Below the pieces are notes generated by a model that ran no database searches, had not been told where the DNA came from, and saw only the letters and a list, made by a program, of their open reading frames with translations. This document shows positions 29,091 to 45,002 of a stretch of 64,000 nucleotides of DNA, in pieces. Position numbers and translations under genes: made by a program. The stretch's first letter is position 1, and every line of letters begins with the position of its first letter. Source of the DNA: Georgenia sp. SYP-B2076 (GTDB taxonomy: Bacteria; Actinomycetota; Actinomycetes; Actinomycetales; Actinomycetaceae); assembly GCF_003991205.1 (NCBI RefSeq), contig NZ_RXOZ01000022.1, positions 124,001-188,000 on the forward strand, written 5' to 3'.

Positions 29091-29609
29091 TCAGTCGGAC
29101 CGGCGGATGCCCATCACTCCGCTCACCGGAGCCGGCCACCCGAGCGCCGCGTCCTCGGCGAGGGCGCGATCGATGCTCTCCTCGACGCGCGGCGGGAAGG
29201 CGGTGGCGCGACGGGTGGCGACATCCACCTGGACCGCCACCAGCTCCATCGTGAATGCCAGGCGGTTGTTGGTCCGGTCGAGCAGGAATGCCATCGCGTG
29301 GAGCGCACGGTCCGAGCGGTCCAGCAGCCTCGTGTGAACCGAGATGGGAGTGCCTGCGCGCAGCTCCGCGTGGTAGCGCAGGTGGTGCTCGGCAACGAAC
29401 TGGGTCTGGCCGAGCTCCGGGATGTTGTGGACACCGAGCCCGAGCTGGCCGAACCTCAGCTCCAGCCCGAGAGACCCGAGCACGAGGTAGTACTGCACGT
29501 TCATGTGGTCGTTCGCATCGAGGTACTCGGGCGGGACCTCTCGCTGCAGGGCCTGGGGCAGCTGCACGACCTCGTCGAAGCCGGGCGGTCGCACTCGTGT
29601 CCTGCTCAC
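29091..29609 (-). CDS. Hotdog-fold acyl-CoA thioesterase (4HBT type)
   Basis: A 172-residue single-hotdog protein with EYLDANDHMNVQYYLVLGS, where the Asp of the D-x-N-x-H-x-N motif is the 4-hydroxybenzoyl-CoA thioesterase-type nucleophile or base. It hydrolyses acyl-CoA to acid plus CoA. The GTG start at 29609 overlaps the upstream MaoC stop by 4 bases (GTGA), so the gene is translated with it. It closes a three-gene unit ligase - MaoC - thioesterase on the minus strand. Substrate unknown. Confidence 0.8.
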   Translation of the reverse strand: MSRTRVRPPGFDEVVQLPQALQREVPPEYLDANDHMNVQYYLVLGSLGLELRFGQLGLGVHNIPELGQTQFVAEHHLRYHAELRAGTPISVHTRLLDRSDRALHAMAFLLDRTNNRLAFTMELVAVQVDVATRRATAFPPRVEESIDRALAEDAALGWPAPVSGVMGIRRSD

Positions 29610-30064
29610 GAGCCGGCCAGGATGAAGATGGCCTCGACGACGCAGGCCGGCTTGGCCGCGCCCTCGATCTCGACGACCACGCCGATGTGCGCCTGGATCC
29701 CGGGACCGCTCGGCGTCACGCGGTCGAGGGTCGCCGACGCTCGGACCCTCGAGCCCACCGGAACCGCCTGGGGGAAACGCACCTTGTCGGCGCCGTAGTT
29801 CACGCCCAACGCGAGATCCTCGATGCGGTAGATCGTCTGCATGAGCACCGGGACGAGCGCCAGCGTGAGGAAGCCGTGCGCGACCGTGCCCCCGAAGGGC
29901 CCGGACGCGGCGCGCTCGGGGTCCACATGGATCCACTGCCGGTCACCCGTCGCCTCGGCGAACTGGTCCACCAGGTCCTGGGTGACCGTGACCCAGTCGC
30001 TGGTGCCCAGGACCTCTCCGGCGGCCGCGCTGAACGCCGCCACGTCGTCGAACACTCGCACCAT
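29606..30064 (-). CDS. MaoC-family (R)-enoyl-CoA hydratase
   Basis: A 152-residue hotdog hydratase. The catalytic Asp/His pair of (R)-specific hydratases is visible in FAEATGDRQWIHVDPERA, followed by GTVAHGFLTLALVPVL, the typical substrate-tunnel helix, and VNYGADKVRFPQAVPVGSRV. The compact length is right for a complete homodimeric R-hydratase. ATG 30064 follows AAGGAGA. It sits 45 bases after the acyl-CoA ligase and overlaps the thioesterase downstream. Confidence 0.85.
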   Translation of the reverse strand: MVRVFDDVAAFSAAAGEVLGTSDWVTVTQDLVDQFAEATGDRQWIHVDPERAASGPFGGTVAHGFLTLALVPVLMQTIYRIEDLALGVNYGADKVRFPQAVPVGSRVRASATLDRVTPSGPGIQAHIGVVVEIEGAAKPACVVEAIFILAGS

Positions 30065-30109
30065 GTCTCTCCTTCTCCCGCCCACAGCCGAACGCATCCG
30101 GCGGAGCCC

Positions 30110-31693
30110 TCAGGTCACGATGCGGTCGGAGGCCTGTGCCGGCGCCTCGGATGCCGATGTGAGCCGATCGACGATCTTGAACTTCTGGAGCTTCCCGGAC
30201 GCCGTCCGGGGCAACGGCTCGTCGAGGACGACCCACTTCTTGGGCACCTTGAACTTCGCGAGATTCTCGCGCGCGTGGGCGCTGAGCTCGGCCTCGCTCA
30301 CCGGGTCCTTGAGGACCACGACCGCGGTAGGCGTCTCTCCCCACTTCTCGTCCGGCGAGCCGACCACCGCAACCTCGCGCACCGCGGGGTGACGCATGAT
30401 CGCGTGCTCGAGCTCGGCCGGGTAGATGTTCAGGCCGCCGCTGATGATCATGTCCTTGCGGCGTCCCGCGATGAAGACGAAGCCGTCCTCGTCGACCGTC
30501 GCGAGGTCACCGGTGCGGAACCATCCGTCGGCGAAGGTCGCCGCTGTCTCCTCCGGCCGCCGCCAGTAGCCGGTCGCGGTCCCGGGGGACCGCACGACGA
30601 TCTCGCCCACCTCGCCCACCTCGACGTCCTCGAGCTCGACGTTGACGACCCTGAGATAGCTGATGAGCCCGCCCTTGCCCACCGACCCGACCTTGGCGAT
30701 GGCGTTCCGTGCGGGCAGGTAGGTGCCGCTGAACGGCCCCTCGGTCATGCCGTATATCTGGACCACGTCACAGCCGGGGAGGCGATCGGCGAGCGTCGAC
30801 AGCAGCTCTGCCGGCACCGGCTCCGAGCCGGTGAACACCATCCGGAGCCGGCCGAGTCGCTCGTGCGTGAACGCATCCAACTCAAGCATCCTGCGGATGA
30901 TGACGGGTGGGAGCCCGCTGATCGTCGCCTGGTGATGGTCAAGCGCACGCGTCAGGCTCGCAGCGTCGATCGCGTGGTTCGGCTGGAGAACGACACGCCC
31001 TCCGACCATGAATGTCGCAAGGGTGAACGAGTGGAAACCGGCGACCCAGGCGAGCGCCACGATCAGCACGTACGTGTCCTCGGCCGTGATGTCGTAGTCA
31101 CCGATCTGCTGGAGCACGTTGAACAGGATCGTGGCCTGGGTGTGGATGGCGGCCTTCGGTCGTCCCGTCGTGCCGCTGGTGTACTGAAGGAGGAACGGCT
31201 CCTCCATTCCCGCGCCGTCCTCTAGCTCCAGCCCCGGGCTGAACGGGTAGGTCTCGACGTCGACCCGCAGCCAACCGGGGCGGTCCGCGTCCACGACCAG
31301 CATCGCGCCGGCGAACTCCGGGCGCTCGGTGAGGTGGTCGAGCTTGTCGCACAGGCCGCTCTCGGACATGACGAAGCGGGCGCCGGAGTCCTCGATCAGG
31401 TAGTCGAGCTCCGCCGGAACGAACATGTAGTTCGCCGGCACGATGACCGCCGACAGCTTCGCCGCCGCGAAGTACAGGTCGAACCACTCGACCCGGTTGT
31501 GCATGAGGACGAGGATGCGGTCCCCTCGCTGCAGGCCCAGCTCGCGCAGCTTCCCGGCGAGCTTGTTCGCGCGCTCGTTGAGCTCCTCGTAGGTGTACTC
31601 GGCGCTGTCAGTGACCAGAGCGACGCGGCTGGCATGCTGATGCAGAACGCTCGTCGGTTTGGTGATGAGCTGATCGAGTCGAAGATAGGTCAC
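30110..31693 (-). CDS. Acyl-CoA ligase (AMP-binding, class I)
   Basis: A 527-residue adenylate-forming ligase that activates a carboxylic acid to its CoA ester. Motifs: P-loop YTSGTTGRPK (171-180), VQIYGMTEGPFSG, GWFRTGDLATVDEDGF, GRRKDMIISGGLNIYPAELE (hinge and mobile domain) and the catalytic lysine in PRTASGKLQK. It is clearly paralogous to the ligase starting at 43048: both share the opening LRLDxLI, HNRVEWFDL and FLLQYTSGTTGRPK. It is first in a minus-strand unit with MaoC and a thioesterase. The acid is unknown. Confidence 0.88.
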   Translation of the reverse strand: MTYLRLDQLITKPTSVLHQHASRVALVTDSAEYTYEELNERANKLAGKLRELGLQRGDRILVLMHNRVEWFDLYFAAAKLSAVIVPANYMFVPAELDYLIEDSGARFVMSESGLCDKLDHLTERPEFAGAMLVVDADRPGWLRVDVETYPFSPGLELEDGAGMEEPFLLQYTSGTTGRPKAAIHTQATILFNVLQQIGDYDITAEDTYVLIVALAWVAGFHSFTLATFMVGGRVVLQPNHAIDAASLTRALDHHQATISGLPPVIIRRMLELDAFTHERLGRLRMVFTGSEPVPAELLSTLADRLPGCDVVQIYGMTEGPFSGTYLPARNAIAKVGSVGKGGLISYLRVVNVELEDVEVGEVGEIVVRSPGTATGYWRRPEETAATFADGWFRTGDLATVDEDGFVFIAGRRKDMIISGGLNIYPAELEHAIMRHPAVREVAVVGSPDEKWGETPTAVVVLKDPVSEAELSAHARENLAKFKVPKKWVVLDEPLPRTASGKLQKFKIVDRLTSASEAPAQASDRIVT

Positions 31694-31798
31694 GTGGGGG
31701 CCTCCGCGTCATTGCTGGTGCCTGGATTTTATGCGTCACCCGGTTTCCCGGAGCCCGGCGTGCAGCGGTATGCGACACGTCCGCGACGCCCTCGTTGG

Positions 31799-32215
31799 TC
31801 AGGAGGCTAGGAACCGGTCGAGCCCGCGGATCGACGCCCGGTACAGCCGTTCGACCACTGCGACGAACTCCTCGCGTGAGCCGACGACGTTCGCCTCGCA
31901 CCACCACTCGACCTTCGTCCGGCCGTCGCTCGTCCCGGTCAGGCGCGTGGTGCCGACCACGTCGTCGGCCGGGAAGTGGTGCGGCGGCAGGACCGCGTAG
32001 GAGATCACGTGGGCCGCGGGGTCGCACGTCTCGAGCCGTTCCTGCACCGTGTACCCCGCCACCGTGACGGTGCGCACCGACCCCACACCGGCACCGTCGA
32101 GGCTGCAGCTCTCCAGCCGGGGGATCCATCCGCGAAGCCCACCGAAGCTGGAGAGAACCGCCCAGACCTCGGCAACGGGGTGCGCGATGACCTGCTCGAC
32201 GCGAACCTGTTCCAT
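31799..32215 (-). CDS. SRPBCC-family protein (START-like ligand-binding fold)
   Basis: A 138-residue protein beginning MEQVRVEQVIAHPVAEVWAV with LRGWIPRLESCSLDG and TRLTGTSDGRTKVEWWCEA, the polyketide cyclase/SRPBCC pattern of a small hydrophobic-pocket protein. These may bind or process lipophilic intermediates; a function cannot be given. ATG 32215 is preceded by GAGGGA. It diverges from the PPOX gene across 115 bases and lies about 105 bases upstream of the ligase on the same strand. Confidence 0.75.
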   Translation of the reverse strand: MEQVRVEQVIAHPVAEVWAVLSSFGGLRGWIPRLESCSLDGAGVGSVRTVTVAGYTVQERLETCDPAAHVISYAVLPPHHFPADDVVGTTRLTGTSDGRTKVEWWCEANVVGSREEFVAVVERLYRASIRGLDRFLAS

Positions 32216-32330: not shown

Positions 32331-32792
32331 ATGGGTGTCAGACTCAGTGCCGAGGAGCGGGAGACGTTTCTGCAGAACGGCCACACGGGAATCATCACGA
32401 CGCTGAGACGCGATGGGTCGCCGGTCAGCCTCCCGGTCTGGTACGCGTACCTGGACGGCAAGGTCTACGTCGGCTCGCCCGAGTCCGCTGCCAAGGTCAA
32501 GCGCATCCGGCACGACGACCGGGCGTGGTTCCTCGTGGAGTCGGGCGAGAAGTGGAAAGAGCTCGCCGCTGTCGGCTTCCCTGCCCGTGCCACCGTCGTC
32601 GAGGGCGCCGAGGCCGACCGGGCGATGGCCGCCTACGAGGAGAAGTACGCCGAGTTCCGCACTCCTCCCGAGGAGATGCCGGGTGCGGCGCAGAACCACT
32701 ACGCCAAGACCGTCATGCTTCGGCTCGACCCGACGGGCGACGCACTGACGTGGAACAACGCCAAGATCAGGCTGAAGTCGCCGGTCAGCTGA
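32331..32792 (+). CDS. PPOX-class flavin/F420-binding split-barrel protein
   Basis: A 153-residue split-barrel protein with HTGIITTLRRDGSPVSLPVW, YVGSPESAAKVKRIRHDDRA and a KTVMLRLDP C-terminal strand, the pattern of pyridoxamine-phosphate-oxidase-like proteins that bind FMN or F420. With an F420-reducing fgd nearby, F420 is a reasonable cofactor, but this is inference. ATG 32331 follows GAGAGAGGTGG. A strong hairpin ends the gene and is shared with the convergent racemase. Confidence 0.8.
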   Translation: MGVRLSAEERETFLQNGHTGIITTLRRDGSPVSLPVWYAYLDGKVYVGSPESAAKVKRIRHDDRAWFLVESGEKWKELAAVGFPARATVVEGAEADRAMAAYEEKYAEFRTPPEEMPGAAQNHYAKTVMLRLDPTGDALTWNNAKIRLKSPVS

Positions 32793-32851: not shown

Positions 32852-33967
32852 TCAGCGCTCCGCGCCCCACTCGTCGAACACCTCGGCGGTGTCCTGGCCG
32901 GCCGCGCGGGGCGCTCGGGGCGCCCGCGCCGACGTCCGCGAGAACCGAGGTGCCGGCGCAGCCTGGGTCACACCGTTGATCTCGGCGACCGTGCCACGCG
33001 CGCTCAGGTGCTCGTCCGCACTGGCCTCCGCCCAGCTCAGGACCGGTGAGACGCAGGCATCGGTCCCGTCGAAGACGGCCGCCCAGTGCGCGCGGCTCTC
33101 AGTGGCGAAGACCTCGGCGATGCGCTGCCTGATCTCGGGCCATCCGGACTGGTCCAGCTGGGCCGGCAGCGTCGTCGGATCGATCCCCAGGCCGTCGAGG
33201 AGCTGGGCGTAGAACTGGGGCTCCATCGCACCGACCGCGACGTAGCGACCGTCGGCGCACTCGTAGGTGTCGTAGAAGGGCGCGCCACCGTCGACGAGGT
33301 TGTCCTCTCGCGCGTCGGTGTGTGCGCCGGCCGCGCGCATGGCCCAGACCAGCTGTGCCAGCAGACTCGCGCCGTCGACCATCGCTGCGTCGACGACCTG
33401 CCCCAAGCCGGACCGCTCCCGCTCCCACAGCGCCGCGAGGACACCGACGACCAACAGCATGGAACCGCCGCCGAAGTCACCGATGAGGTTGAGGGGCGGC
33501 ACGGGCCGCTCACCTGCCCGACCGATCGCGTGGAGAATCCCGGTCGGTGCAAGGTAGTTGATGTCGTGGCCGGCCGTGGCGCTGCGCGGCCCGTCCTGGC
33601 CCCACCCCGTCATCCGTGCGTAGACCAGCCGCGGGTTCACCTCCGCGCAGTCGTCGGGTCCGAGCCCCAGCCGCTCGGCCGTCCCCGGCCGGTACCCCTC
33701 GATCAGCACGTCGGCGCGCTCGACCAGCCGCAGCACACGCTCACGGTCCTCTACGTTCTTGAGATCGGCCGCGACCGAACGTCGGTTGCGCAGCACGTGG
33801 TTCGGCACGCCGTCCATCGGGTCCAGCGCCGCCGTTCCCGGACGTTCGATCCGGACGACGTCCGCACCGAGGTCTCCGAGGATCATCGCGGCGTGGGGAC
33901 CGGGCCCGATGCCCGCGAGCTCCACCACCCTCATACCGACGAGCGGTCCGGCCACCGGCGTGCTCAT
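32852..33967 (-). CDS. Alpha-methylacyl-CoA racemase (CoA-transferase family III fold)
   Basis: A 371-residue CaiB/BaiF-fold enzyme. The racemase subgroup is identified by [11 protein letters not shown] (His134) and [10 protein letters not shown] (Asp164), which match the acid/base pair His126/Asp156 of the mycobacterial racemase, and by [15 protein letters not shown]. It interconverts (R)- and (S)-2-methylacyl-CoA so that the acyl-CoA dehydrogenase can act, which implies an alpha-methyl-branched substrate for the surrounding cluster. ATG 33967 overlaps the MaoC stop by 4 bases. It is last in a minus-strand operon starting with an acyl-CoA dehydrogenase. Confidence 0.88.
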
Positions 33968-34428
33968 GACCGTCCTCCGACACGCATGCCTCCGTCGGCG
34001 GGGAGGAGGACAGTCGCGGTACCGGTGATCGCTCGGTCCCCACCATGCACGGCAGCCCACACGTCACAGGTCACCAACTGCCCGTCGGAGGACTCCTCGA
34101 TGGCGGTGACGGTTCCTCCGACCAGGACGTCGTCGCCGGCGAAGACGTTCGCACTGAACCGGCACCTCAACCGGCGGATGTTCGATCGGGAGCCTGACCA
34201 CGCACTCAGCAGGTTGAGGATGTACGCGGCCGTCGCGCCTCCCTGGTTGACCTCTACCTCCCCCAGACCAGCCGCCGCGATGGCGTCGAGGTCGTAGTGG
34301 ATGGGGTTGGCGTCCCTGAGGATGAGCGCGAGCTGGAGGATGTGCTCGACGTCGATGTCGCCGACCTCCATGGTGGGCAGCTCGTCGCCCACCGCCACGG
34401 TGCCCGCCTCTGCTTGCTGGATCGTCAC
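33964..34428 (-). CDS. MaoC-like hydratase subunit (second of an adjacent pair)
   Basis: A 154-residue hotdog protein with [20 protein letters not shown], the hydratase Asp/His motif (D-x-N-P-I-H), then [20 protein letters not shown] and [20 protein letters not shown]. It starts at GTG 34428, one base after the stop of the preceding hotdog gene, with GAGGGG upstream. Adjacent short MaoC genes of this kind form heteromeric enoyl-CoA hydratases in steroid side-chain degradation (ChsH1/ChsH2); here the catalytic residues appear to be in this subunit. The overlap with the racemase gene indicates one operon. Confidence 0.8.
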
Positions 34429-34429
34429 G

Positions 34430-34864
34430 TCAGTCCCCTCGCTTGAACAGATACGTCGCTTCGACGACGCCGTGCGGGTCCTCGTCGGTACCGATCGCCA
34501 CCCGGACGACGATCCGGTCCAGGACGGTGTCGTCACGCATGGCGGAGCGACCGACGTCGACGATCGTGGCTGCGGCGCGGTAGGTGCGACCGACCAGCAG
34601 GGGCCGCTCGATCGAGACGTCCACCTGCCCGTACAAGAGGACGTCGTGAGGGCCGGCGCTGGCGAGTGCCATGAGCTCGTCGACGGAGATGCCCATGCAG
34701 CGCAGCGACGCGACGATGAACCACACGGGGTGCGCCACATCCGGGTCGCCCGGCGCGCGCACCGCATGGTCTGCGATGAAGCTCTCGTGGCGCGGGATCT
34801 CGATGGTGCCGCCGGGGAGCTCACGTTCCCGGAGCGACTCGAGCACGGCAAGTTCGACAGTCAC
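34430..34864 (-). CDS. MaoC N-terminal-domain-like subunit (partner hotdog)
   Basis: A 144-residue hotdog-like protein containing HPVWFIVASLRCMGISVDEL, ASAGPHDVLLYGQVDVSIER and PLLVGRTYRAAATIVDVGRS, the layout of the FAS1-type/MaoC N-terminal dehydratase domain. The Asp/His catalytic motif seen in the neighbouring subunit is not evident, so it probably shapes the binding site of a heteromer. GTG 34864 and a one-base gap to the next gene support coupled synthesis of the two subunits. Confidence 0.7.
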   Translation of the reverse strand: MTVELAVLESLRERELPGGTIEIPRHESFIADHAVRAPGDPDVAHPVWFIVASLRCMGISVDELMALASAGPHDVLLYGQVDVSIERPLLVGRTYRAAATIVDVGRSAMRDDTVLDRIVVRVAIGTDEDPHGVVEATYLFKRGD

Positions 34865-34897: not shown

Positions 34898-36061
34898 TCA
34901 GTACGAGCGGGGCATGCCGACCGACTCGGCGATCGAGTTGCGAGCCATCTCGTTGGAGATGGGAGCGATCCTGAACTGACGGACGTCTCGCCAGTAGCGT
35001 TGCATGTTGGTCTCCTGGGCAAGGCCCATCCCGCCGAGCACCTGCAACCCCAGGTCCGCTGCGGCCACGGCATGCTCGGAGGTCGCGACCTTGGCGATCT
35101 TGGCCTCCATCTCGTACGGCAGCCCGGCCTCCTCACGCCCCGCGACGTCGAAGGCCAGGAGCTCGGCCTGCTTCTGCCAGATGACGAGGTTCGCGATGTA
35201 GTGCTGGATGATCTGGTGGCCGCCGATGACCTTGCCGAACGCCTCGCGCTGGGTGGCGTAGTCGACGGCCTCCTCGACGACGCCGTCGATCATTCCCAGC
35301 GCCATCGCGGCGCTGATGACCCGCTCGTGGTTGAGCGTCGTCGTCATCGCCCGGAACCCTCGGTCCACCTCCCCGAGCACGTGCTCGTCGGGCACGAAGA
35401 CGTCGTCGAGGAACACCTCGCACGAGCCGACGGCGCGCATCCCGATCTTGGGGATGTAGGAGGTGGTGATACCGGGCTGGTCACGCTTGACCAGGAAAGC
35501 CGTGGTCCCCGGGTGGCGGGAGCCCTCCCTGGCTTCCGACGTCTTGGCGATGAGCAGGAGGTAGTCGGCCTCGGCGGCACCGGTCGACCACATCTTCTGG
35601 CCGTTGATTTTCCACCCGCCGTCGACGCGCTCCCCCCGGGTGCGCATGGCACCGAGAAGATCCGTCCCTCCACCCGGTTCCGTCGCCGCGATCGCGAACC
35701 GGAGGCGCCCCTCGGCGATCTGCGGGAGGAACTCACGCTTCTGTTCGTCGCTCCCCGCAGAGCCGATCGCACGTGAGCCGGCGAAGGCGGTGATCGCCCA
35801 GACCCAGGTCAGGCCGCCGAGGTTGCGCGCGAGCTCTCGGGCAGCGATCGCGGAGTCGACGGGCCCGCCACCGGCTCCCCCGTACTCCTCGCTGATGCCG
35901 AGCCCGTGCAACCCCATCTTCGTCATCTCGTCCCACAGGGCGTGCGGGTACACGTGCTCCTGTCTCTCGAGCTCGATGACGAGCGTCTTCGGGAACTCCC
36001 GGTCCACCCAGTCTCGGAGGGTCCCCTGGAACGCACGCCGTTCTGAGCTCAGCTCCACCAT
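34898..36061 (-). CDS. Acyl-CoA dehydrogenase
   Basis: A 387-residue flavoprotein with FAIAATEPGGGTDLLGAMRT, NGQKMWSTGAAEADYLLLIA, YATQREAFGKVIGGHQIIQH, LQVLGGMGLAQETNMQRYWR and the C-terminal block PISNEMARNSIAESVG. It oxidises a 2,3-saturated acyl-CoA, delivering electrons to ETF. It is the first gene of the operon acyl-CoA dehydrogenase - MaoC pair - racemase, a sensible order for an alpha-methyl-branched substrate. A palindromic candidate operator lies 30-50 bases before its ATG (36061), between it and the divergent DUF35 gene. Confidence 0.87.
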   Translation of the reverse strand: MVELSSERRAFQGTLRDWVDREFPKTLVIELERQEHVYPHALWDEMTKMGLHGLGISEEYGGAGGGPVDSAIAARELARNLGGLTWVWAITAFAGSRAIGSAGSDEQKREFLPQIAEGRLRFAIAATEPGGGTDLLGAMRTRGERVDGGWKINGQKMWSTGAAEADYLLLIAKTSEAREGSRHPGTTAFLVKRDQPGITTSYIPKIGMRAVGSCEVFLDDVFVPDEHVLGEVDRGFRAMTTTLNHERVISAAMALGMIDGVVEEAVDYATQREAFGKVIGGHQIIQHYIANLVIWQKQAELLAFDVAGREEAGLPYEMEAKIAKVATSEHAVAAADLGLQVLGGMGLAQETNMQRYWRDVRQFRIAPISNEMARNSIAESVGMPRSY

Positions 36062-36090: not shown

Positions 36091-36110
36091 AACCAACCGT
36101 CTGGTTGTTT
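36091..36110. promoter_or_regulatory. Palindromic candidate operator AAnCAACC-N4-GGTTGnTT
   Basis: The 20 bases AACCAACCGTCTGGTTGTTT form an inverted repeat with half-sites AAnCAACC and GGTTGnTT. They sit in the only AT-richer stretch between the divergent acyl-CoA dehydrogenase and DUF35-thiolase operons, where both promoters must lie. TetR-family repressors of acyl-CoA catabolism bind sites of this size and symmetry; the regulator gene is not evident in the window. Confidence 0.65.
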
Positions 36111-36202
36111 GGTATCTTAGCCACACGACGCCGTGCACTTCCAGCGGTTCGACGGAAGTTCGCAGTCGCGTCCGCCTCGAGACGTCGACGTTGAGGAAGC
36201 AG

Positions 36203-36598
36203 ATGACGATGAGCACCGATGTGATTGCGACGGAACGTTTCCCCGAACCGCGGCCGGCCACCGCCGTCGATGCCGGCGGACAGGTTCGCCTCGCGGGCTG
36301 GCGGTGCACTCGGTGCGTCCATCCGCTCGCTCTCCGCGCGCCGTGGTGCCCTCTGTGTCGCGGCGATCTACGCGAGCACGACTTCGGGCCGCACGGAACC
36401 GTCTGGTCGAGCACCGTCGTCCGAGTGCCCTTGCCCGGACGCGAGCCTCCGTACGCCCTCGCCTACGTCGATCTCGACGACGGGCCCCGGGTGCTCGGGC
36501 ACCTCAGCTCGCCGCACAGGCTGCCCGTCGGGGCGGCCGTCACGCTCCGTGGGAGCTCGGCACTGGGTGACCTTCTCTTCGACGGGACGGACGCCTGA
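36203..36598 (+). CDS. DUF35 (zinc-ribbon plus OB-fold) acyl-CoA-associated protein
   Basis: A 131-residue protein with a rubredoxin-like zinc ribbon, Cys35-x2-Cys38 and Cys49-x2-Cys52 in WRCTRC and WCPLC, followed by an OB fold (GTVWSSTVVRVPLPG, YALAYVDLDDGPRVLGHL). Such proteins are partner subunits of thiolase-like enzymes and can bind acyl-CoA. ATG 36203 follows GAGGA closely; TTG 36191 and ATG 36209 are alternatives. Its stop overlaps the thiolase start (TGATG), so the two products should be made in equal amounts and probably form a complex. Confidence 0.83.
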   Translation: MTMSTDVIATERFPEPRPATAVDAGGQVRLAGWRCTRCVHPLALRAPWCPLCRGDLREHDFGPHGTVWSSTVVRVPLPGREPPYALAYVDLDDGPRVLGHLSSPHRLPVGAAVTLRGSSALGDLLFDGTDA

Positions 36599-37719: not shown

Positions 37720-38498
37720 CGTCCACCTGGTTCTCCCGCGACACGGCCTCGACGCCGCATGGTGAGGGCGTCCGCCGCCTGTCGCTCTCCGAACGCTGGC
37801 TCACGCCCTTCGGGAAGGTCAACGGCGGCTACATCCTCGCGTCCATGCTCCGCGGGCTCGGCGAGGAGATCGGCCGGGACGACCCGGTCGTGGCCTCCGT
37901 CACTTTCCTCTCGCCGGCTCGGGTGGGTGAAGCAGAGCTGCGCTGCCGCTCGCTGAAGAAGGGCCGCCGGATCCACACTGCGCAGGCCGACCTCATGGCC
38001 GGCGACAAGCTGCTGGCGACTCTCACCGCCAGCTTCGGAGGGCGCCGTGAGGGCCAGCTCTACCAGGGCCTCCCCGCACCGAACCTGCCCTCCCCGGACG
38101 AGTGCGTCGATCCCATCCCTGACACGATGCTCCGGCGCGGCCTGCTCGAGAGAGTTGCCCAAGCCACACCGACACCCCCGGGCTGGTCGCTGGGCGCACC
38201 GACCGGTGACCCGGTGATCGACGGATGGCAGCTGCTCGAGGACGGAACGGAGGTGAGCCCACCCGCGCTCGCCCTCTTGACCGACAGCTTCGTCAGCACC
38301 TGCTTCGAGCTCGGTGAGTACTCGACCACGACCCTCCAGCTCACCGTCCACCTCTACGCTGCTCCGGCACCGGGATGGCTCGCGACCCGGATGAGCACCC
38401 GGTACCTCGAGGGCGGGCTGCACGATGAGAACTGTGAGCTGTGGGATCGTGACGGTGTCCTCGTTGCCCAAGCCCGTCAGCTGCAGCTCCTGACGTAG
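37716..38498 (+). CDS. TesB-like acyl-CoA thioesterase, full length
   Basis: A 260-residue double-hotdog protein: LTPFGKVNGGYILASMLRGL opens the first domain, SPARVGEAELRCRSLKKGRR continues it, and ALALLTDSFVSTCFELGEYS with LTVHLYAAPAPGWLATRMST forms the second. It hydrolyses an acyl-CoA, perhaps to recycle CoA from dead-end intermediates. ATG 37716 overlaps the thiolase stop by 4 bases. This intact relative shows what the truncated thioesterase at 28529 has lost. Confidence 0.8.
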   Translation: MTSTWFSRDTASTPHGEGVRRLSLSERWLTPFGKVNGGYILASMLRGLGEEIGRDDPVVASVTFLSPARVGEAELRCRSLKKGRRIHTAQADLMAGDKLLATLTASFGGRREGQLYQGLPAPNLPSPDECVDPIPDTMLRRGLLERVAQATPTPPGWSLGAPTGDPVIDGWQLLEDGTEVSPPALALLTDSFVSTCFELGEYSTTTLQLTVHLYAAPAPGWLATRMSTRYLEGGLHDENCELWDRDGVLVAQARQLQLLT

Positions 38499-38526: not shown

Positions 38527-39501
38527 TCACGGGCGGAGCCTGACGACGAGCTTGCCGGCCACAGCCCGGTCGGCAAGGCGGTGCAGGGCGACCCGGACGT
38601 CGTCGAGGGCGAAGCTCTGGGCGACCGGTGCCACGAGCCGGCCGGCCTCGATGTGCGGCAGCAGCCGCTCCCACCAGCGCAGCGCCGCACCGGGGTCCAG
38701 CATGAGCTTGCGCCCGAGGTGGACGCCGACCACCGCGAGATTGCGGAGCAGGAGTCGGTTCGTCTGTGCCGTGGGGATGCCGCCTGCGGCGAACCCCACG
38801 ACCAGCAGTCGTCCCTCGTCGGCCAAGCACCGGACCGAGTCGTCGAAGCGATCGCCACCGACGGGATCCACGACCAGGTCGACGCCCCTGCCTCCGGTGA
38901 CGTCGTGCACTGCCCCCCTGAAGCCCTCGATCTCCAGGACGTCGTCGGCTCCGGCGTCCTCGGCCAGCCTCCTCTTCTCCGCCGAGGAGGCCACCGCCAG
39001 GATCCGGCCGGCGCCGAGAGCGCGCGCCACCTGGATGGCGGCGACACCCACGCCGCCTCCGGCTCCGTGGACGAGCACGGAGTCCCCGGGCCGGATGCCC
39101 CCACGGTCGAGGAGCATGTAGGCGGCGGTGAGGTAGTTGACGGGTAGCGCGGCGCCTTGCTCGAACGAGATGCCCTGCCCGAGGGGGAGAGTCATCGATA
39201 CCGGGGTGACCGCCAGCTGGGCCAGCCCACCAGTGGGCCCGATGCCGACGACGCGGTCGCCGGGGCGGTACCGGGATCCACGCGGGGCGCTGACGACACG
39301 TCCTGCGAACTCGGACCCGGGCACGAACGGCAGCTCGTGACGGGACTGATGACCTCCCAGTGTCTGCAGGACATCGGGAAACGCCAGGCCCGCCGCATGG
39401 ACGTCGATGAGGACCTCGTCCGGACCGGGTGCCGGTGCGTCGATCTCTCGGACGTGGACTGCGTCGGGCCCAGCGAAGGCCTCGATCCGGGCGGCCCGCA
39501 C
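38527..39501 (-). CDS. Zinc-independent MDR oxidoreductase (NADPH:quinone reductase-like)
   Basis: A 324-residue medium-chain dehydrogenase/reductase. The N-terminal GroES-like domain ends with PVNYLTAAYMLLDRGGIRPG and the Rossmann loop is VLVHGAGGGVGVAAIQVARA. Zinc-binding cysteines are absent, as in quinone oxidoreductases and enoyl-CoA reductases of this group. It is last on a minus-strand operon after two acyl-CoA dehydrogenases; GTG 39501 lies 3 bases after the preceding stop. A role in reducing an enoyl or enone intermediate of the pathway is possible but not shown. Confidence 0.82.
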   Translation of the reverse strand: MRAARIEAFAGPDAVHVREIDAPAPGPDEVLIDVHAAGLAFPDVLQTLGGHQSRHELPFVPGSEFAGRVVSAPRGSRYRPGDRVVGIGPTGGLAQLAVTPVSMTLPLGQGISFEQGAALPVNYLTAAYMLLDRGGIRPGDSVLVHGAGGGVGVAAIQVARALGAGRILAVASSAEKRRLAEDAGADDVLEIEGFRGAVHDVTGGRGVDLVVDPVGGDRFDDSVRCLADEGRLLVVGFAAGGIPTAQTNRLLLRNLAVVGVHLGRKLMLDPGAALRWWERLLPHIEAGRLVAPVAQSFALDDVRVALHRLADRAVAGKLVVRLRP

Positions 39502-39504: not shown

Positions 39505-40623
39505 TCAGAGGCCCGAGAGTGCGCTGACCGTCGAGCGGTGCTGGGCTGGTGCTCCGAGGAGCTGGGCCGACGTCTTGGCGCGTTTGAGGTAGAGATGGGC
39601 ATCGCTCTCCTCGGTGAAGCCCATCGCGCCATGGAGCTGGACACACTCGGCCGCCGCGGTGAGCATCGCGCTGCTGGCGGCCGCGACCGCCACGGCCGCG
39701 CAGAGCGCGGCGTCCGTGGCGTCGAGATCGGCCTGCTCGGCCGCGAGCCGCACCGCAGCGTCAGCGGCCTCGACACCGCAGAAGGCGTCCGCGAGGCGAT
39801 GCTTGACGGCCTGGAAGGCGCCGATCGGTTGGCCGAACTGCTCGCGGTGCGTCACATGGTCGATGGTCATCTCGACACAGGCGCGCCCCACCCCCACGTG
39901 CTCGGCGGCCAGGGCGATCTGCGCGCGACCCAGCGCCTCGGTCAACGGCCCTCGTACGTCACCGTCCCCGACCCGCGTCCCCTCCACCCCCTCGAACGTC
40001 AGCCGGGCCTGGGGCTGGGTCGCGTCGAGGGTCGGCAACGGGGTGCGAGTCAGACCCGCCTGGCTGCTCTCGACGCGGTACAGGCCGAGACCCTGCTCGT
40101 CGGCGGCGCTGACGAGCAGCACATCGGCCGAGGCGCCGTGCTGCACGAACAGCGCCTCACCGGTGAGCACACCGACCCCTCCCCCACGGGTGGTGGCCGC
40201 AACCCCGGTCCCGTCCACCGACCACGATCGGGTGTCGGGGCCGCGGAGCGCGAGGGTCGCCGTCAGTGAACCCGCGGCCATGGCCTCCAGGAGGTCACGG
40301 TGGACACCGTCACGATCCACCCGGGTCAGCACGTGCGTGGCCACCACACCACTGGCGAAGTACGGCACGCAGGCCAAGGACCTGCCGAGCTCGATCTGGA
40401 CGACGGCGACCTCGGCCCAACCAAGGCCCAACCCGCCCGCGTCCTCCGGCACCAGCACAGCGGCGAGTCCCAGCTCGACGGCCAGTGCACGCCACACGGC
40501 CTCGTCGACGTCTTCGGGGCCGGCGATCACGCGGCGCACGTCGGCCGAGCCCGACCGCTTGGCGAGCACGTCGGCCACGACCGTGCGCATGTCCTGCTGA
40601 TCGGCAGTGAGTGTGTAGGTCAT
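39505..40623 (-). CDS. Acyl-CoA dehydrogenase, likely auxiliary subunit of a heteromer
   Basis: A 372-residue acyl-CoA dehydrogenase-fold protein. The N-terminal domain is recognisable (AVLVPEDAGGLGLGWAEVAV), the C-terminal domain has THREQFGQPIGAFQAVKHRL and CVQLHGAMGFTEESDAHLYL, but the middle beta domain is divergent and the usual GGTNEI-like catalytic ending is absent. This matches the weaker partner in paired dehydrogenases such as ChsE1/ChsE2. ATG 40623 follows AAAGGA. The partner gene ends 20 bases upstream. Confidence 0.82.
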   Translation of the reverse strand: MTYTLTADQQDMRTVVADVLAKRSGSADVRRVIAGPEDVDEAVWRALAVELGLAAVLVPEDAGGLGLGWAEVAVVQIELGRSLACVPYFASGVVATHVLTRVDRDGVHRDLLEAMAAGSLTATLALRGPDTRSWSVDGTGVAATTRGGGVGVLTGEALFVQHGASADVLLVSAADEQGLGLYRVESSQAGLTRTPLPTLDATQPQARLTFEGVEGTRVGDGDVRGPLTEALGRAQIALAAEHVGVGRACVEMTIDHVTHREQFGQPIGAFQAVKHRLADAFCGVEAADAAVRLAAEQADLDATDAALCAAVAVAAASSAMLTAAAECVQLHGAMGFTEESDAHLYLKRAKTSAQLLGAPAQHRSTVSALSGL

Positions 40624-40643: not shown

Positions 40644-41864
40644 TCACCGGGGTAGACCAAGGACACGCTCGGCCACGGCGTTGCGCTGGATCTCGTCGCT
40701 TCCGCCCCCGACGCTGTACGCCGAGATCTCCAGCCCGATCATTCGCCAGGCGTAGGTCCCCCACTCACCGGTATCGGCAACCGCCCGTTGCCCCAGCACG
40801 TGGTCGACCAGGCCGGCCACCTTGCGCACCGAGCTGATCATCAAGAGCTTGGCCACCGACGCAACCGGCGCCTGGAAGCTGCCGCTGAGCATCTCCTCGG
40901 TGCACCGCGCGTTGAACGCGTCGGCCACCCGGATCGCAATGAGCGCCTGCGCCAGTAGGTCGCGCGTGACGTCGTCCCCCGCGCCGAAGCGACGCACCAT
41001 CTCCACCAACAGCTCGACGTCGACCGGGTTGTTCGCCTGGCCCCCACCGATGGCCGAGCGTTCGCTGGAGATGGTCGACATCGCCACCTTCCAACCGCCG
41101 TCGACCTCGCCCAGCCGACGGTCGTCGGGCACGTAGACGTCGTCGAACGTCACCTCGTTGAACGACGCCTCCCCCGTCATCTGCCGGATACGGCGGACAT
41201 CGATCCCGGGGGTGTCCATGTCGATGAGGAACATCGTGAGGTTGCGGTGCCGATCTGCCTCATCACCCGTGCGGCACAGCAGCAGGCCCACATCGGCGAT
41301 GTGCGCGATGGAGCTCCACAGCTTCTGTCCCGTCACCCGCCAGACATCGCCCTCCCGACTGGCCGTCGTCCGCAGCGCCGCCAGATCAGACCCGGCCTCG
41401 CTCTCGGAGAACAGCTGGCAGCCCAGGATCTCGCCATTCGTGAAGGCTCGGCACACCCGGTTCGGCAGCTCGCCATGTCCCCACGCAGCAACCGTCGGTC
41501 GCAGCAGGTGCAGACCCATCACCAACGACGTCGGATCCGGCACATCGAACTGCGCCTCCAGACGCGAGAAGGCGAGCTGATGCGTGCTGGGCAGCCCGGT
41601 ACCTCCGAGCTCCCTGGGCCCGGTGATCCACCCGTAGCCCGCAGCGGCCTTCTCGGCCTGCCACGCGCGCGCCGCCAGGACACCCGGTGCGGCAGCGTCA
41701 TCGATGTCGGACCCCACCAGCTTCACCGAGTCACGTCCACGCCCCCACCTGGACGCCCTGCTCACACGACGCGCGCGAGCCCCCGCCAGGAAGCTCTCCG
41801 CACCGGCGACGAACTCGTCCAGTGCCGGCACCTGCGCGACCGCAACTCGATCTGACACGCTCAC
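40644..41864 (-). CDS. Acyl-CoA dehydrogenase, likely main subunit of a heteromer
   Basis: A 406-residue acyl-CoA dehydrogenase with GCQLFSESEAGSDLAALRTT, VTGQKLWSSIAHIADVGLLL, FNEVTFDDVYVPDDRRLGE and the C-terminal GGGSDEIQRNAVAERVLGLPR segment, quoted in part. It lies directly upstream of the divergent partner gene, which suggests an alpha-beta complex with one active site per pair, as known for cholesterol side-chain dehydrogenases. GTG 41864 has AGGGAGG nine bases upstream; a longer upstream frame was rejected. The order dehydrogenase pair - MDR reductase suggests action on one substrate. Confidence 0.84.
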   Translation of the reverse strand: MSVSDRVAVAQVPALDEFVAGAESFLAGARARRVSRASRWGRGRDSVKLVGSDIDDAAAPGVLAARAWQAEKAAAGYGWITGPRELGGTGLPSTHQLAFSRLEAQFDVPDPTSLVMGLHLLRPTVAAWGHGELPNRVCRAFTNGEILGCQLFSESEAGSDLAALRTTASREGDVWRVTGQKLWSSIAHIADVGLLLCRTGDEADRHRNLTMFLIDMDTPGIDVRRIRQMTGEASFNEVTFDDVYVPDDRRLGEVDGGWKVAMSTISSERSAIGGGQANNPVDVELLVEMVRRFGAGDDVTRDLLAQALIAIRVADAFNARCTEEMLSGSFQAPVASVAKLLMISSVRKVAGLVDHVLGQRAVADTGEWGTYAWRMIGLEISAYSVGGGSDEIQRNAVAERVLGLPR

Positions 41865-42170: not shown

Positions 42171-42956
42171 GTGAGTAGCGTCGAGATCGTCGACGTCACG
42201 GGCGTCCGGATCGTGACGCTGGCTCGCCCCGAGAAGCTCAACGCCTTCGACCACAAGCTGGTCCGCGAGTACCTCGACGCCCTCGAGGCGGCAGCGGGCG
42301 ATCCTTCCGTGCGGGCGATCGTGGTCACGGGACAAGGGCGTGCCTTCAGCGTCGGTGGGGACATGGCCGCACTCGCGGACCTGTCCCGGCACGGGGCGGA
42401 TGCGGGAGCCGACGACCCGCGCGGGCACCTCGTTGCCATGTCGCTGTCCAAGCCGGTCATCGCGGCCGTCAACGGCTACTGTCTGGGGCTCGGGCTCGTC
42501 CACGCTCTCGCCTGCGACATCCGCTTCGCAGCCGCCGGAGCGACGCTGAGCGCCATGTTCAGCCGGCGGGGGCTGGTGGCTGAACAGGGACTCGCGTGGC
42601 TGGTACCTCACATCGCCGGACGTGCCGTCGCCCTCGACCTCCTGCTGTCCGGCCGGACCATCACCGCCGTCGAAGCGCTGGAGATGGGGCTCGTGCACCG
42701 CGTCGTCAGCGACGAGGATCTTCTCGACGAGGCGCTGGCCTACGCGAAGGACCTCGTGGACAACGTCTCCCCGGCCTCGATGCGCGTCATCAAGCAGCAG
42801 GTGAATCTCCACCCCGGGATGTCGCGGGACGATGCCGTCGAACACTCGGCTCAACAGATGCTCGACTCCTTCGCCTGGCCCGATTTCGCGGAGGGAGTGG
42901 CAAGCTTCCAGGACAAGCGCCGCCCCCGGTTCGAGCCCCTGCAGCCCGAGCCGTGA
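42171..42956 (+). CDS. Enoyl-CoA hydratase/isomerase
   Basis: A 261-residue crotonase: LARPEKLNAFDHKLVREYLD, GRAFSVGGDMAALADL (oxyanion hole), NGYCLGLGLVHALACDIRFA and FSRRGLVAEQGLAWLVPHIA. The first position normally occupied by catalytic Glu (GGGCEL type) reads LGLVHAL, so one classical hydratase glutamate is missing while the second region keeps Glu in VAEQGL; it may be an isomerase or ring-opening hydrolase rather than a hydratase. GTG 42171 was chosen because homology begins there; the ribosome site is weak. The ligase follows 91 bases downstream. Confidence 0.8.
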   Translation: MSSVEIVDVTGVRIVTLARPEKLNAFDHKLVREYLDALEAAAGDPSVRAIVVTGQGRAFSVGGDMAALADLSRHGADAGADDPRGHLVAMSLSKPVIAAVNGYCLGLGLVHALACDIRFAAAGATLSAMFSRRGLVAEQGLAWLVPHIAGRAVALDLLLSGRTITAVEALEMGLVHRVVSDEDLLDEALAYAKDLVDNVSPASMRVIKQQVNLHPGMSRDDAVEHSAQQMLDSFAWPDFAEGVASFQDKRRPRFEPLQPEP

Positions 42957-43047: not shown

Positions 43048-44586
43048 ATGCACCTGCGACTCGACCACCTCATCAGCAAGCACCCTGCCTCGGGCGCGGT
43101 CAACGAGCGCGGGTTGGCCGTGGTCGCCCGCGGCAGAGAGCACACGTACGCCGACCTCAACCGGCGGGCGAACGGGCTGGCCGCCTACCTGCGTTCGGTG
43201 GGCGTGCGCCGTGGCGATCGCGTGCTCGGATTCATGCACAACCGCGTGGAGTGGTTCGACCTGTTCTTCGCGGTGGCCAAGCTGCGGGCGGTCCTGGTAC
43301 CCGCCAACCACTTCCTCGTGCCGGACGAGCTCGAGCACCTGATCCAGGACTCCGGTGCCGTCGCCGTGGTGACGGACGGTGAGCTCGTGGCAGGCGCCGA
43401 CTTCCTTGTCGACCACCCAGGGCTTGCGAACCGGTTGCTGCTGGTCGAGGGGCAGCGGCCGGGCTGGCAGTCGGTGGACGTCGCCGCCCTTCCCGTCGAC
43501 CCGGCGCTGGAGCTCGACGAGGGAGCCGCGACCGACGAGCCCTTCCTGCTCCAGTACACGTCGGGCACGACGGGGCGGCCCAAGGGGGCGGTCCACACGC
43601 AGGGCACGGTGCTGCTCAACGCGCTCAGCCAGGTCGGCGACTTCCAGCTGGGTCCCCGCGACGTCATGTTCGTCGTCTCGTCCTTCGGCTGGGTTGCCGG
43701 CTTCCACGGGTTCACCTTGGCGACCCTCCTCAGCGGCGGCACCGTCGTCGTCGGCTCGGGCCACGCCCTCGATCCGGTCGAGCTCAGCCGCACTCTCGTC
43801 GAGCGGGGGGTCACCATCACCGCCCTGCCGATCCTGGTGATGCGCAAGCTGCTCGAGATCGAGGAGTTCAGCGCCGAGCGTGGATTCCAGCTCCGAATGA
43901 TCGTGACCGGGGGTGAGCCGGTGCCGGTGGAGCTGATGCGCGCCATCGGCGAGCGTGTTCCCGGCTGCGATGTCGTCCAGTTCTACGGGATGACCGAGTT
44001 CCCCTCCAGCGGCGTCTTCCTGCTCCCGGGGTACGCCGACACCAAGCTCGGGTCGGTCGGCAAGGGGGGCGTGATGACCCAGCTCCGCGTCGTCGACGAC
44101 GCGATGCAGGATCTGCCGCCGGGCGTCGTGGGCGAGGTCGTCATCCGCTCACCTGCCACTGCGCTGGGCTACTGGAACCGACCGGAGGAGAGCGCCGTGG
44201 CCTTCGCCGAGGGCTGGTATCGCACCGGTGACCTCGGTCGGCTGGACGAGGACGGGTTCCTGTTCATCTCCGGTAGGAGCAAGGACATGATCATCACCGG
44301 CGGGTTGAACGTCTACCCGGCCGAGGTCGAGCAGGTCCTGGCGCGGCACCCGGCGGTCGGTGAGGCCGCCGTCGTGGGTGTCCCCGACGACCGCTTCGGG
44401 GAGGTGGCCCTCGCCGTCGTGGTGCCCCGGGCGCCGGTGACCGTGGAGGAGCTGGTCTCGTTCGCCAGCGAGCGGCTGGCGAAGTACAAGCGGCCGCGCC
44501 GGTGGCTGTTCCAGGAGCAGCCGCTCCCCCGGACCGTGTCGGGCAAGCTCAAGAAGTTCGAGGTACGCGACCGGCTGGACGGCTGA
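43048..44586 (+). CDS. Acyl-CoA ligase (AMP-binding, class I), second paralog
   Basis: A 512-residue adenylate-forming ligase with P-loop YTSGTTGRPK (170-179), VQFYGMTEFPSSGVF, GWYRTGDLGRLDEDGFLF, GRSKDMIITGGLNVYPAEVE and catalytic Lys in PRTVSGKLKK. ATG 43048 is set by alignment with the paralogous ligase at 30110-31693, whose product starts at the same point (LRLDxLI); an open upstream extension was not used. It follows the enoyl-CoA hydratase on the same strand. The two ligases share so much sequence around the acyl pocket that they probably act on similar acids. Confidence 0.88.
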   Translation: MHLRLDHLISKHPASGAVNERGLAVVARGREHTYADLNRRANGLAAYLRSVGVRRGDRVLGFMHNRVEWFDLFFAVAKLRAVLVPANHFLVPDELEHLIQDSGAVAVVTDGELVAGADFLVDHPGLANRLLLVEGQRPGWQSVDVAALPVDPALELDEGAATDEPFLLQYTSGTTGRPKGAVHTQGTVLLNALSQVGDFQLGPRDVMFVVSSFGWVAGFHGFTLATLLSGGTVVVGSGHALDPVELSRTLVERGVTITALPILVMRKLLEIEEFSAERGFQLRMIVTGGEPVPVELMRAIGERVPGCDVVQFYGMTEFPSSGVFLLPGYADTKLGSVGKGGVMTQLRVVDDAMQDLPPGVVGEVVIRSPATALGYWNRPEESAVAFAEGWYRTGDLGRLDEDGFLFISGRSKDMIITGGLNVYPAEVEQVLARHPAVGEAAVVGVPDDRFGEVALAVVVPRAPVTVEELVSFASERLAKYKRPRRWLFQEQPLPRTVSGKLKKFEVRDRLDG

Positions 44587-44594
44587 CCCTGCCC

Positions 44595-44618
44595 GCCGGG
44601 GGCCGTGCTATGCCCGGC
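44595..44618. terminator. Possible terminator between convergent ligase and EthD genes
   Basis: Arms GCCGGG and CCCGGC with further possible pairing inside (GGC/GCC) and a two-base bulge, located between two convergent stops. A weak but suitably placed hairpin. Confidence 0.3.
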
Positions 44619-44630
44619 CGAGCATGGCGC

Positions 44631-45002
44631 TCAACGCTCGGCCAGCACGACCTCGTCGGCGAGGAGGATCGACGAGGTGGCGAAGTCGATGAACCGCGCC
44701 TCGTCGGCAACGAGCTCCTCCATGGCTGCGCGTCCTGCTGGGGACCTCCCCGCCGCGAGCATCGCCTCAAGGTCGTCGAAGTACACCTGCGCCACTCCGT
44801 CGAACGGCACGTCCGTGCCGCGTGCGCGACCCAGGGCGTCCGTGATCCGACCTGGCACCCCGTGGTGCTGGACGTACCGGCGGATGCCGAGCACCGCGGC
44901 GTGCGCGGACACCAGCGGCCCGTGCACGTTCCTCCAGTACTCGTGGAACTCCGAGACGCTCAGCTCCTTCTTGCGCCGAACGCTGAACATGACGGAGATC
45001 AT
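44631..45002 (-). CDS. EthD-domain protein
   Basis: A 123-residue protein starting MISVMFSVRRKKELSVSEFH, then EYWRNVHGPLVSAHAAVLGI and RRYVQHHGVPG, the ferredoxin-like fold of EthD proteins. Members are small cytosolic proteins, often encoded in ring or ether degradation clusters, some with dehydratase or decarboxylase roles; a function cannot be assigned. ATG 45002 has a perfect GAGGAGG site. It follows the SDR gene by 24 bases at the end of the Liv-SDR minus-strand run. Confidence 0.8.
   Translation of the reverse strand: MISVMFSVRRKKELSVSEFHEYWRNVHGPLVSAHAAVLGIRRYVQHHGVPGRITDALGRARGTDVPFDGVAQVYFDDLEAMLAAGRSPAGRAAMEELVADEARFIDFATSSILLADEVVLAER

Follow-up and report, generated by a model that had tools for sequence, protein, structure and literature searches.

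The igr module of cholesterol side-chain degradation (ChsE1/E2, ChsH1/H2 and Ltp2) combines a two-subunit acyl-CoA dehydrogenase (ACAD), a MaoC hydratase whose partner appears inert, an alpha-methylacyl-CoA racemase (MCR) and a thiolase-fold protein with a DUF35/OB partner. All of these elements have likenesses in a gene cluster of Georgenia sp. SYP-B2076, which lies in the window analyzed here (64,000 nucleotides, positions 124,001 to 188,000 of the 428-kb contig NZ_RXOZ01000022.1, in a genome of 4.28 Mb; coordinates below count from the first letter of the window). An earlier note, made from the sequence alone, had described positions 29,091–45,002 as a candidate undescribed pathway for an alpha-methyl-branched or cyclic carboxylate that parallels cholesterol side-chain removal. 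Unlike the igr module, the Georgenia cluster encodes the MaoC partner (hereafter MaoC') and DUF35 as separate proteins, its thiolase is catalytic as judged by sequence, its candidate lyase is a pair of proteins with neither thiolase nor YDHF residues, and no KshA occurs in the genome.

Limonene degradation offers the second comparison. In the pathway of the Rhodococcus erythropolis DCL14 type (limABC, a Baeyer–Villiger monooxygenase (BVMO) and a lactone hydrolase, then beta-oxidation), a homologous module stands beside limABC in R. qingshengii CX-1, whereas the Georgenia genome lacks LimA, has no BVMO near the cluster and may use another ring-derived acid. Anaerobic routes are the third comparison. 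For a methanogenic limonene enrichment, it has been proposed that 3-isopropenyl-glutaryl-CoA is desaturated and hydrated, and that LrcC, an HMG-CoA synthase superfamily enzyme, cleaves the resulting tertiary alcohol at the hydroxylated carbon (lrc operon, Syntrophobacteraceae LiM6; PMC12583861); for Castellaniella defragrans (ctm/mrc island), the proposal comprises valine-type end steps and a pair of adjacent MaoC-like genes, MrcG/MrcH (PMC4109377). Both resemble the scheme developed here, but their rings are described as being opened via perillyl-CoA by a hydrolase, and the cleaving enzyme is assigned to the HMG-CoA synthase superfamily.

We propose that the window genes at 29–51 kb and a second group outside the window (~79.9–99.5 kb, window coordinates) form a co-regulated catabolic pathway for a branched acid, likeliest one from ring opening of a p-menthane-type monoterpenoid or a relative, and we place the probability of this reading at about 0.5. 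That the two groups belong to one pathway is very probable in itself. The 16-kb extent given in the earlier note was thus too small, as the pathway runs beyond the reported stretch and its degenerate-thiolase set lies outside the window.

The recurring core is a MaoC hydratase, the predicted catalytic subunit with a DANPIH motif (33964..34428, minus strand; Pfam, 35.4 bits), and MaoC' (34430..34864, minus strand), a partner that probably has a hot-dog fold, without catalytic motif or Pfam match. MaoC' is rare: at E 1e-5 it turned up in 7 of 72,556 plasmid records (one of them alphaproteobacterial), and at E 1e-8 in 6 of 394 genomes sampled from the class, the own genome among them. These gave 13 module loci, comprising seven plasmid loci, five genome loci (own excluded) and L077, a plasmid locus picked up via the thiolase; they are partly non-independent (a number of the Rhodococcus loci are closely related, and one strain supplied two of the plasmids), and the homolog thresholds for the counts in module and control loci were set after the hits were seen. 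MaoC' adjoins MaoC in 13/13 (in L077 by annotation and alignment), and homologs of both subunits of the window's two-gene ACAD are found in eight. The third MaoC of the window has homologs (at least 110 bits) in 5 of the 13 module loci. Among 16 control loci, for which the ACAD large subunit served as anchor, one has such a homolog, one the racemase and none the triad described below. The grouping goes beyond chance: MaoC'-MaoC reappears with related genes nearby on Rhodococcus megaplasmids and in other genomes; most other window genes lack a consistent close partner there.

The ACAD large subunit had also been tried as a marker for the module and was set aside. At 1e-60, it had matches in 51 of 396 genomes from the phylum and in 4 of 297 from the order (own genome in both), and none of the 12 loci fetched carried MaoC'; a contig scan with this protein, covering close relatives only, likewise gave 12 loci with a best identity of 42% and no MaoC' at E 1e-8.

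The second half of the proposed pathway emerges from plasmids of R. rhodochrous GD02 and R. opacus DSM 44186, in which a single operon encodes a 370-aa protein of unknown function, a thiolase, an OB protein, MaoC', MaoC, a ligase, an OB/DUF35 protein, another thiolase and a luciferase-like protein. Counterparts of the first three genes of that operon (hereafter the triad) and of its ligase lie at 81194–85553 in Georgenia, with 56–70% identity. The triad itself (81.2–84.0 kb) is ~45 kb from the MaoC', DUF35 and thiolase genes of the window, so that genes forming one operon on the Rhodococcus plasmids are here split over 45 kb. By profile comparison, the 370-aa protein has a thiolase fold (hhalign 99.4%, E 1.2e-21); in its thiolase-like partner, the Cys, HDxF and GHP residues are missing, and FNPY and CTN are present. 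This degenerate-thiolase set could be a lyase.

Triad and MaoC' occur together. The triad's first gene was found in 9 of the 13 module loci within the stretches searched, and in 11 once the remainder of the plasmid or genome is included. Among the 393 other genomes of the class, four carry it, all among the five with MaoC' (the fifth, G815, has MaoC' without it), giving a hypergeometric P of 5e-9 by genome and 1e-5 by genus; the counts for the two genes were taken as the same draw of 394 genomes, their totals being the same. On plasmids, the seven records with the triad's first gene at E 1e-20 are six MaoC' records plus GD02, and the alphaproteobacterial MaoC' record is without it.

The two halves also share a palindrome. 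The candidate operator AACCAACC-GTCT-GGTTGTTT lies at 36091..36110 (no strand), inside the 129 bp that separate the divergent ACAD and DUF35 genes, and AACCAAAC-TATC-GGTTGGTT at 81099–81118 (L005:17099-17118), in the gap between a thiolase gene and the triad; a TetR gene (L005:15180-15854, minus strand) is one gene away from this second site. Each differs by one mismatch from the symmetric consensus AACCAACCNNNNGGTTGGTT, a post hoc construct taken from the first site and symmetrized after the second was found; the position of the sites in promoter gaps was not part of that fit. Within the 184 kb scanned, these are the only two sites with four or fewer mismatches and both fall in divergent promoter gaps, compared with averages of 0, 0, 0, 0.1 and 1.5 sites at 0, 1, 2, 3 and 4 mismatches in shuffled sequence (n=10). 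Apart from copies of both sites, the exact degenerate pattern had no match in the loci scanned, and the other module loci contained one site with three mismatches (L096), some with four and none better. We consider the module, and the co-regulation of its two halves, well supported.

The sequences show the gene content, the residues, the recurring module, the palindrome pair and the co-occurrence. A logic of desaturation, hydration and cleavage is probable for these genes, and we infer the following steps, as well as the protein complexes and the regulator. A branched acid would be taken up by the LIV-type ABC importer (two ATPases, a fused permease and a binding protein; 45861..50707, minus strand; Pfam), whose presence suggests acid uptake, and would be activated by acyl-CoA ligase A (30110..31693, minus strand; AMP-binding, 272 bits) or B (43048..44586, plus strand; AMP-binding, 259.5 bits). 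As first described, the ligases are paralogs, 54% identical over 509 aa. The racemase would set the alpha-methyl stereocenter, the two-subunit ACAD would introduce an alpha,beta double bond and the MaoC/MaoC' pair would hydrate it. Where hydration gives a secondary alcohol, a short-chain dehydrogenase/reductase (SDR) could oxidize it; the candidate 3-hydroxyacyl-CoA dehydrogenase at 45027..45851 (minus strand; Pfam adh_short_C2, 200 bits) has the YxxxK motif as YSASK. The DUF35/SCP-x thiolase would then cut the alpha-methyl beta-keto acyl-CoA to release propionyl-CoA. A beta-branch would instead yield a tertiary alcohol, for which the degenerate-thiolase pair and OB protein outside the window may break the C–C bond in a retro-aldol-type reaction.

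The alpha-methyl chemistry envisaged in the earlier note gains from the racemase (32852..33967, minus strand), whose gene overlaps that of MaoC by 4 bp. It matches M. tuberculosis MCR (1X74) over its full length, with 514 bits over 362 residues compared with 131 bits for the best CoA-transferase, and so falls with MCR rather than with the CoA-transferases; it retains GHDIN, GDFGGG and YDTYEC segments, which we take to include the catalytic residues. Unlike the M. tuberculosis gene, it stands in an operon with ACAD, MaoC' and MaoC: the minus-strand unit from 36061 to 32852 runs ACAD-MaoC'-MaoC-racemase, with gaps of 33 and 1 bp before the 4-bp overlap, and its first gene is the window's third ACAD (34898..36061, minus strand; Pfam), 33 bp upstream of MaoC'. 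On the plasmid of Rhodococcus sp. DMU1, a racemase homolog matches as two separate pieces without an annotated gene (L081:18570-19576), and the DMU1 racemase may be broken.

The hydratase genes had been likened to ChsH1/ChsH2, and this comparison holds by sequence match for MaoC and by a weak structural match for its partner. The best solved match of MaoC is 5I7N (E 1.7e-8), followed by chain B, the shorter chain, of ChsH1-ChsH2 (E 6e-6), and the D, N, P, I and H of its DxNPIH motif are invariant across seven aligned sequences (MaoC and six homologs). MaoC' shows no catalytic motif and no Pfam match even at E 10 in the seven sequences scanned. A Foldseek search with a low-confidence model of MaoC' returned the longer chains of the ChsH1-ChsH2 complex as top hit (E 3.5e-4, TM 0.44), and three of the four hits of this same model at E ≤0.001 were ChsH1-ChsH2, the fourth being itaconyl-CoA hydratase. 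These matches are suggestive of an active/inert hydratase pair.

For the dehydrogenase pair, too, the parallel drawn earlier finds agreement, as the best solved relatives of the two-gene ACAD include FadE26/FadE27 and IpdE1/IpdE2, which are likewise two-gene enzymes with an unusual large subunit. The FadE26/IpdE1-like large subunit (40644..41864, minus strand) scores 92.7 bits against 4X28_A and 84.8 against 6WY8_B. The small subunit (39505..40623, minus strand) is IpdE2-like, with 107 bits to 6WY8_A. In contrast to the known enzymes, the large subunit shares no more than 47% identity with its nearest relative among those found, and the small subunit fails the NCBIfam IpdE2 equivalog cut-off (NF050027, 175.5 of 450 bits).

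These relatives bear on whether the cluster is a steroid or bile-acid side-chain module of the igr kind with its ring genes elsewhere. The same kinds of enzyme are present (ligase, MCR, two-subunit ACAD, MaoC pair, DUF35 with a thiolase fold), and both the ACAD pair and the MaoC pair have solved enzymes of steroid degradation among their best relatives. Of the steroid-ring genes that the earlier note listed as lacking, KshA (searched as KshA_C) has no match in the whole genome, while KstD and HsaC were not searched for; for HsaA, the best protein reaches 266.8 bits compared with a cut-off of 450. Furthermore, the cluster contains no MaoC-DUF35 fusion of the ChsH2 type, the corresponding genes being separate at 34430–34864 and 36191–36598, YDHF is missing from both the window thiolase and the degenerate thiolase, and the IpdE2 score is far under its cut-off. 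After the tests for KshA, HsaA, YDHF and the fusion, we regard a steroid pathway as very unlikely. The cholesterol parallel survives for the racemase, putative hydratase pair and two-gene ACAD but does not extend to the window thiolase, which is not of the Ltp2 type.

This thiolase (36598..37719, plus strand) is SCP-x/BbsB-like, with 217.9 bits to BbsB (7PXP), 216 to SCP2 thiolase (6HSJ) and 88 to Ltp2 (6OK1). Its partner DUF35 (OB_ChsH2_C, 54.3 bits; 36191..36598, plus strand) was missed by the gene caller and recovered via the Pfam search; its start codon may be TTG at 36191 or an ATG shortly after. Ltp2 and Sal carry YDHF or YDCY in place of the thiolase motif (PMC12329534). The window protein has NACASS at 75, HDAF at 267 and GHP at 316, as expected of SCP2-type thiolases, and because these residues (Cys, HDAF, GHP) are kept, the DUF35/SCP-x pair is by sequence a working thiolase rather than an Ltp2-type aldolase. 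We accordingly rejected an Ltp2-like role, and the proposed equivalence of the pair to Ltp gives way to one with BbsB and SCP2 thiolases. Used as a marker at 1e-90, the thiolase was found in 5 of 396 genomes, own included; in the other four loci DUF35 was adjacent and the rest absent. DUF35 homologs (59–60%) adjoin the thiolase homolog in L077, L078 and L098. On two Rhodococcus plasmids, the second gene downstream from the thiolase homolog encodes an SRPBCC protein, which does not align with the window SRPBCC at E 1e-4.

BbsB, with its DUF35/OB partner BbsA, raises the question of whether the substrate is an aryl-alkyl or aryl-ketone acid, with the thiolase cleaving a beta-keto ester of the aroylacetyl-CoA type. 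Benzoylsuccinyl-CoA thiolase is the closest solved relative, and further thiolase/DUF35 homologs (thiolase 55–57%) lie in Rhodococcus operons at L107:3053-9252 and L108:8121-14301. These operons of R. oxybenzonivorans and R. pyridinivorans, which also encode biotin carboxylase, phosphoenolpyruvate-dikinase-like and SRPBCC proteins, resemble and are possibly a ketone carboxylation route. Neither locus has a MaoC' or MaoC match, however, and the nearest thiolase homologs (71–73%) sit in the MaoC'-triad operon. The window thiolase is also far under the cut-off of the NCBIfam BbsB model (243.6 of 750 bits), and the annotated stretches contain no benzylsuccinate genes. An aryl substrate is thus quite unlikely.

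The terpenoid acid was one of several guesses in the earlier note, and it is favored here by the neighbors of the module in R. qingshengii CX-1, the substrate itself being our inference. On the CX-1 plasmid, the module spans 134.9–155.9 kb, and limonene-1,2-epoxide hydrolase, a luciferase-like monooxygenase and limC lie at 172.9–175.4 kb, placing limABC 35 kb from MaoC'. CX-1 LimA matches the solved limonene-1,2-epoxide hydrolase 1NWW, presumably the DCL14 enzyme, with 301.9 bits over 148 residues. LimA-like proteins were found at E 1e-20 in only 2 of 72,556 plasmid records, those of CX-1 and DMU1 (54%, 77% of length), and both carry the module. Of six FMO-like proteins of module plasmids tested, three (on both R. 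ruber MSA14 plasmids and that of DMU1) have the BVMO fingerprint. Ring-opened limonene/dihydrocarvone products, including the alpha-methyl acid 6-hydroxy-5-isopropenyl-2-methylhexanoate, are said in reviews to go to beta-oxidation (PMC7794910, PMC4097962). Such an acid would be a fitting substrate for MCR and for a thiolase that yields propionyl-CoA, and a 3-isopropenyl acid would form a tertiary alcohol upon hydration and require a lyase, a sequence with a precedent in the steps proposed for LrcC. An acid from a ring-opened p-menthane-type monoterpenoid or a relative would then be the likeliest substrate; a terpenoid origin as such has, in our estimate, slightly less than an even chance.

In the island at 85–101 kb, three luciferase-like flavin enzymes (L006:1593-2633, 8421-9458 and 16358-17371) and proteins of the SMP-30 and phosphotriesterase types (L006:6582-7490 and 11174-12172, respectively) could be candidates for ring oxidation and lactone opening. 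A search of the Georgenia genome for ring-opening enzymes returned a cytochrome P450 cluster on C34 and FMO-like proteins on C1, C2 and C17, none near the window. The P450 cluster (C34:178001-212000; L100, L101) includes ferredoxin/reductase domains, SDRs and an MFS transporter, the SDRs and transporter being 42–43% identical to those on the R. ruber MSA14 module plasmids; this cluster is a possible upper pathway. The genome also encodes the mycofactocin radical-SAM enzyme (C3:32955-33962; 646 bits, cut-off 265), and mycofactocin-coupled alcohol dehydrogenases are therefore possible.

Directly upstream of the cluster, with electron-transfer flavoprotein genes, are valine/isobutyrate-type degradation genes (19313–26583): an aldehyde dehydrogenase, an enzyme of the 3-hydroxyisobutyrate dehydrogenase type, one of the HIBCH type, an ACAD and an enoyl-CoA hydratase. 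These could accept isobutyryl- or methacrylyl-type products. MCR, ACAD, MaoC hydratase, SDR and SCP-x thiolase make up the peroxisomal branched-chain beta-oxidation set, and all five families are present here, so that the cluster might be a bacterial counterpart serving alpha-methyl isoprenoid fatty acids in general (pristanate type), with propionyl-CoA plausibly handled beside the valine-type genes at 19.3–26.6 kb. Such a route leaves the shared palindrome, the co-occurrence of the degenerate-thiolase triad and the limABC neighbors in CX-1 unexplained, and we consider it unlikely.

Several observations weigh against a monoterpenoid pathway built from both halves. Some concern the module: a racemase homolog lies near MaoC' in only 2 of the 13 loci (further copies occur elsewhere on four module plasmids, but MCR is common, with 25 records), window DUF35/thiolase homologs occur in only 3, no consistent counterpart of the thioesterases, EthD or SRPBCC proteins was found, and MaoC' is absent from all 16 ACAD-anchored control loci. 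For most module loci, the ACAD adjoining MaoC' resembles the Georgenia ACAD at 87.4–88.6 kb (40–43%) more than that of the window (34–36%), and the ACAD large subunit is slightly nearer the copy at 98.2–99.4 kb. Others concern function and regulation: profile comparison of MaoC' with MaoC detects no similarity, the single-sequence MaoC' model has a mean pLDDT of 46, the degenerate thiolase lacks the YDHF aldolase motif as well, making its chemistry a guess, and the Rhodococcus loci have no palindrome with three or fewer mismatches. Lastly, this genome contains no limonene epoxide hydrolase (LimA-like, PF07858), and its fetched stretches no homologs of the Rhodococcus BVMOs. Alternatively, there might be no single pathway, the CoA genes here being unrelated to one another and serving fatty-acid use in general, as might be read from the wealth of CoA enzymes between 19 and ~115 kb and the many window genes without a conserved partner. 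The palindrome pair, the co-occurrence and the repeated neighborhoods make this highly improbable.

The remaining genes complete the inventory, and gene calling with Pfam/NCBIfam recovered every gene named in the earlier note at its place. The minus strand carries a 4HBT-type thioesterase (29091..29594; Pfam 4HBT_2, 73.7 bits), the third MaoC hydratase, with GDRQWIH (29606..30064; Pfam MaoC, 89.3 bits), and the SRPBCC (Polyketide_cyc2) protein (31799..32215; Pfam, 76.5 bits); a PNPOx gene absent from the earlier list follows on the plus strand (32331-32792). A TesB-like acyl-CoA thioesterase (37716..38498, plus strand; Pfam 4HBT_3C, 86 bits) closes the DUF35-thiolase-thioesterase unit (36191 to 38498), whose genes overlap at their ends, and a medium-chain dehydrogenase/reductase (MDR; 38527..39501, minus strand; Pfam ADH_zinc_N, 99 bits) closes the minus-strand unit of the ACAD pair (41864 to 38527; gaps of 20 and 3 bp). 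The crotonase-fold enzyme (42171..42956, plus strand; Pfam ECH_1, 180 bits; NF004857, 281.6 bits, cut-off 341) precedes ligase B in a further plus-strand unit. Its active site is non-classical, as had been noted: judged by eye, both classical glutamates are missing, at positions that we take to be those of the rat enzyme.

The EthD-family protein (44631..45002, minus strand; Pfam, 83.5 bits) ends a minus-strand unit running from 50707 to 44631 (binding protein-permease-ATPases-SDR-EthD), in which neighboring genes overlap slightly or are no more than 95 bp apart. Importer, SDR and EthD thus form an apparent operon, in which the SDR and importer sit past the end of the stretch first reported. 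Two of the 13 module loci, L097 and L099, have homologs of both kinds of LIV-type ATPase. Divergent from the importer is a GAF/AAA-lid/Fis-type regulator (51022..52797, plus strand; Pfam HTH_8, AAA_lid_14 and GAF), with 32–37% homologs in four of the first six Rhodococcus loci (L077, L079, L081 and L082) and also in L087, L089 and L090. APH-type phosphotransferases adjoin acyl-CoA ligases at 53537–56223 and L005:8866-14276, with further copies later in the island; such enzymes presumably act on 4-hydroxy acids (levulinate type).

The protein families described here are known; the novelty lies in how they are arranged, in the palindrome linking the two halves and in the degenerate-thiolase triad, which together make this a variant of beta-oxidation by hydration and cleavage. 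A search of titles and abstract beginnings in the open-licence PMC literature found no beta-oxidation genes named for ring-opened limonene in Rhodococcus. In the reviews consulted, the fate of CoA-activated ring-opened limonene acids in aerobic actinobacteria is given just as 'beta-oxidation' (PMC4097962, PMC7794910), while genes have already been proposed for anaerobic degraders (PMC4109377, PMC12583861). The recurring module and the shared palindrome, with limABC alongside in one strain, turn the aerobic case into a testable gene list. A more far-reaching proposal, which we consider doubtful, is that the module (ACAD-MaoC'-MaoC, two-subunit ACAD, MCR and degenerate-thiolase/OB complex) is the aerobic actinobacterial lower pathway for ring-opened p-menthane-type monoterpenoids and, in addition, that the triad is a new family of C–C lyases for tertiary beta-hydroxyacyl-CoAs with an active site unlike those of thiolases, Ltp2 or Sal. 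Should the triad prove to be a lyase, it would be one more case of the thiolase fold re-used for C–C cleavage.

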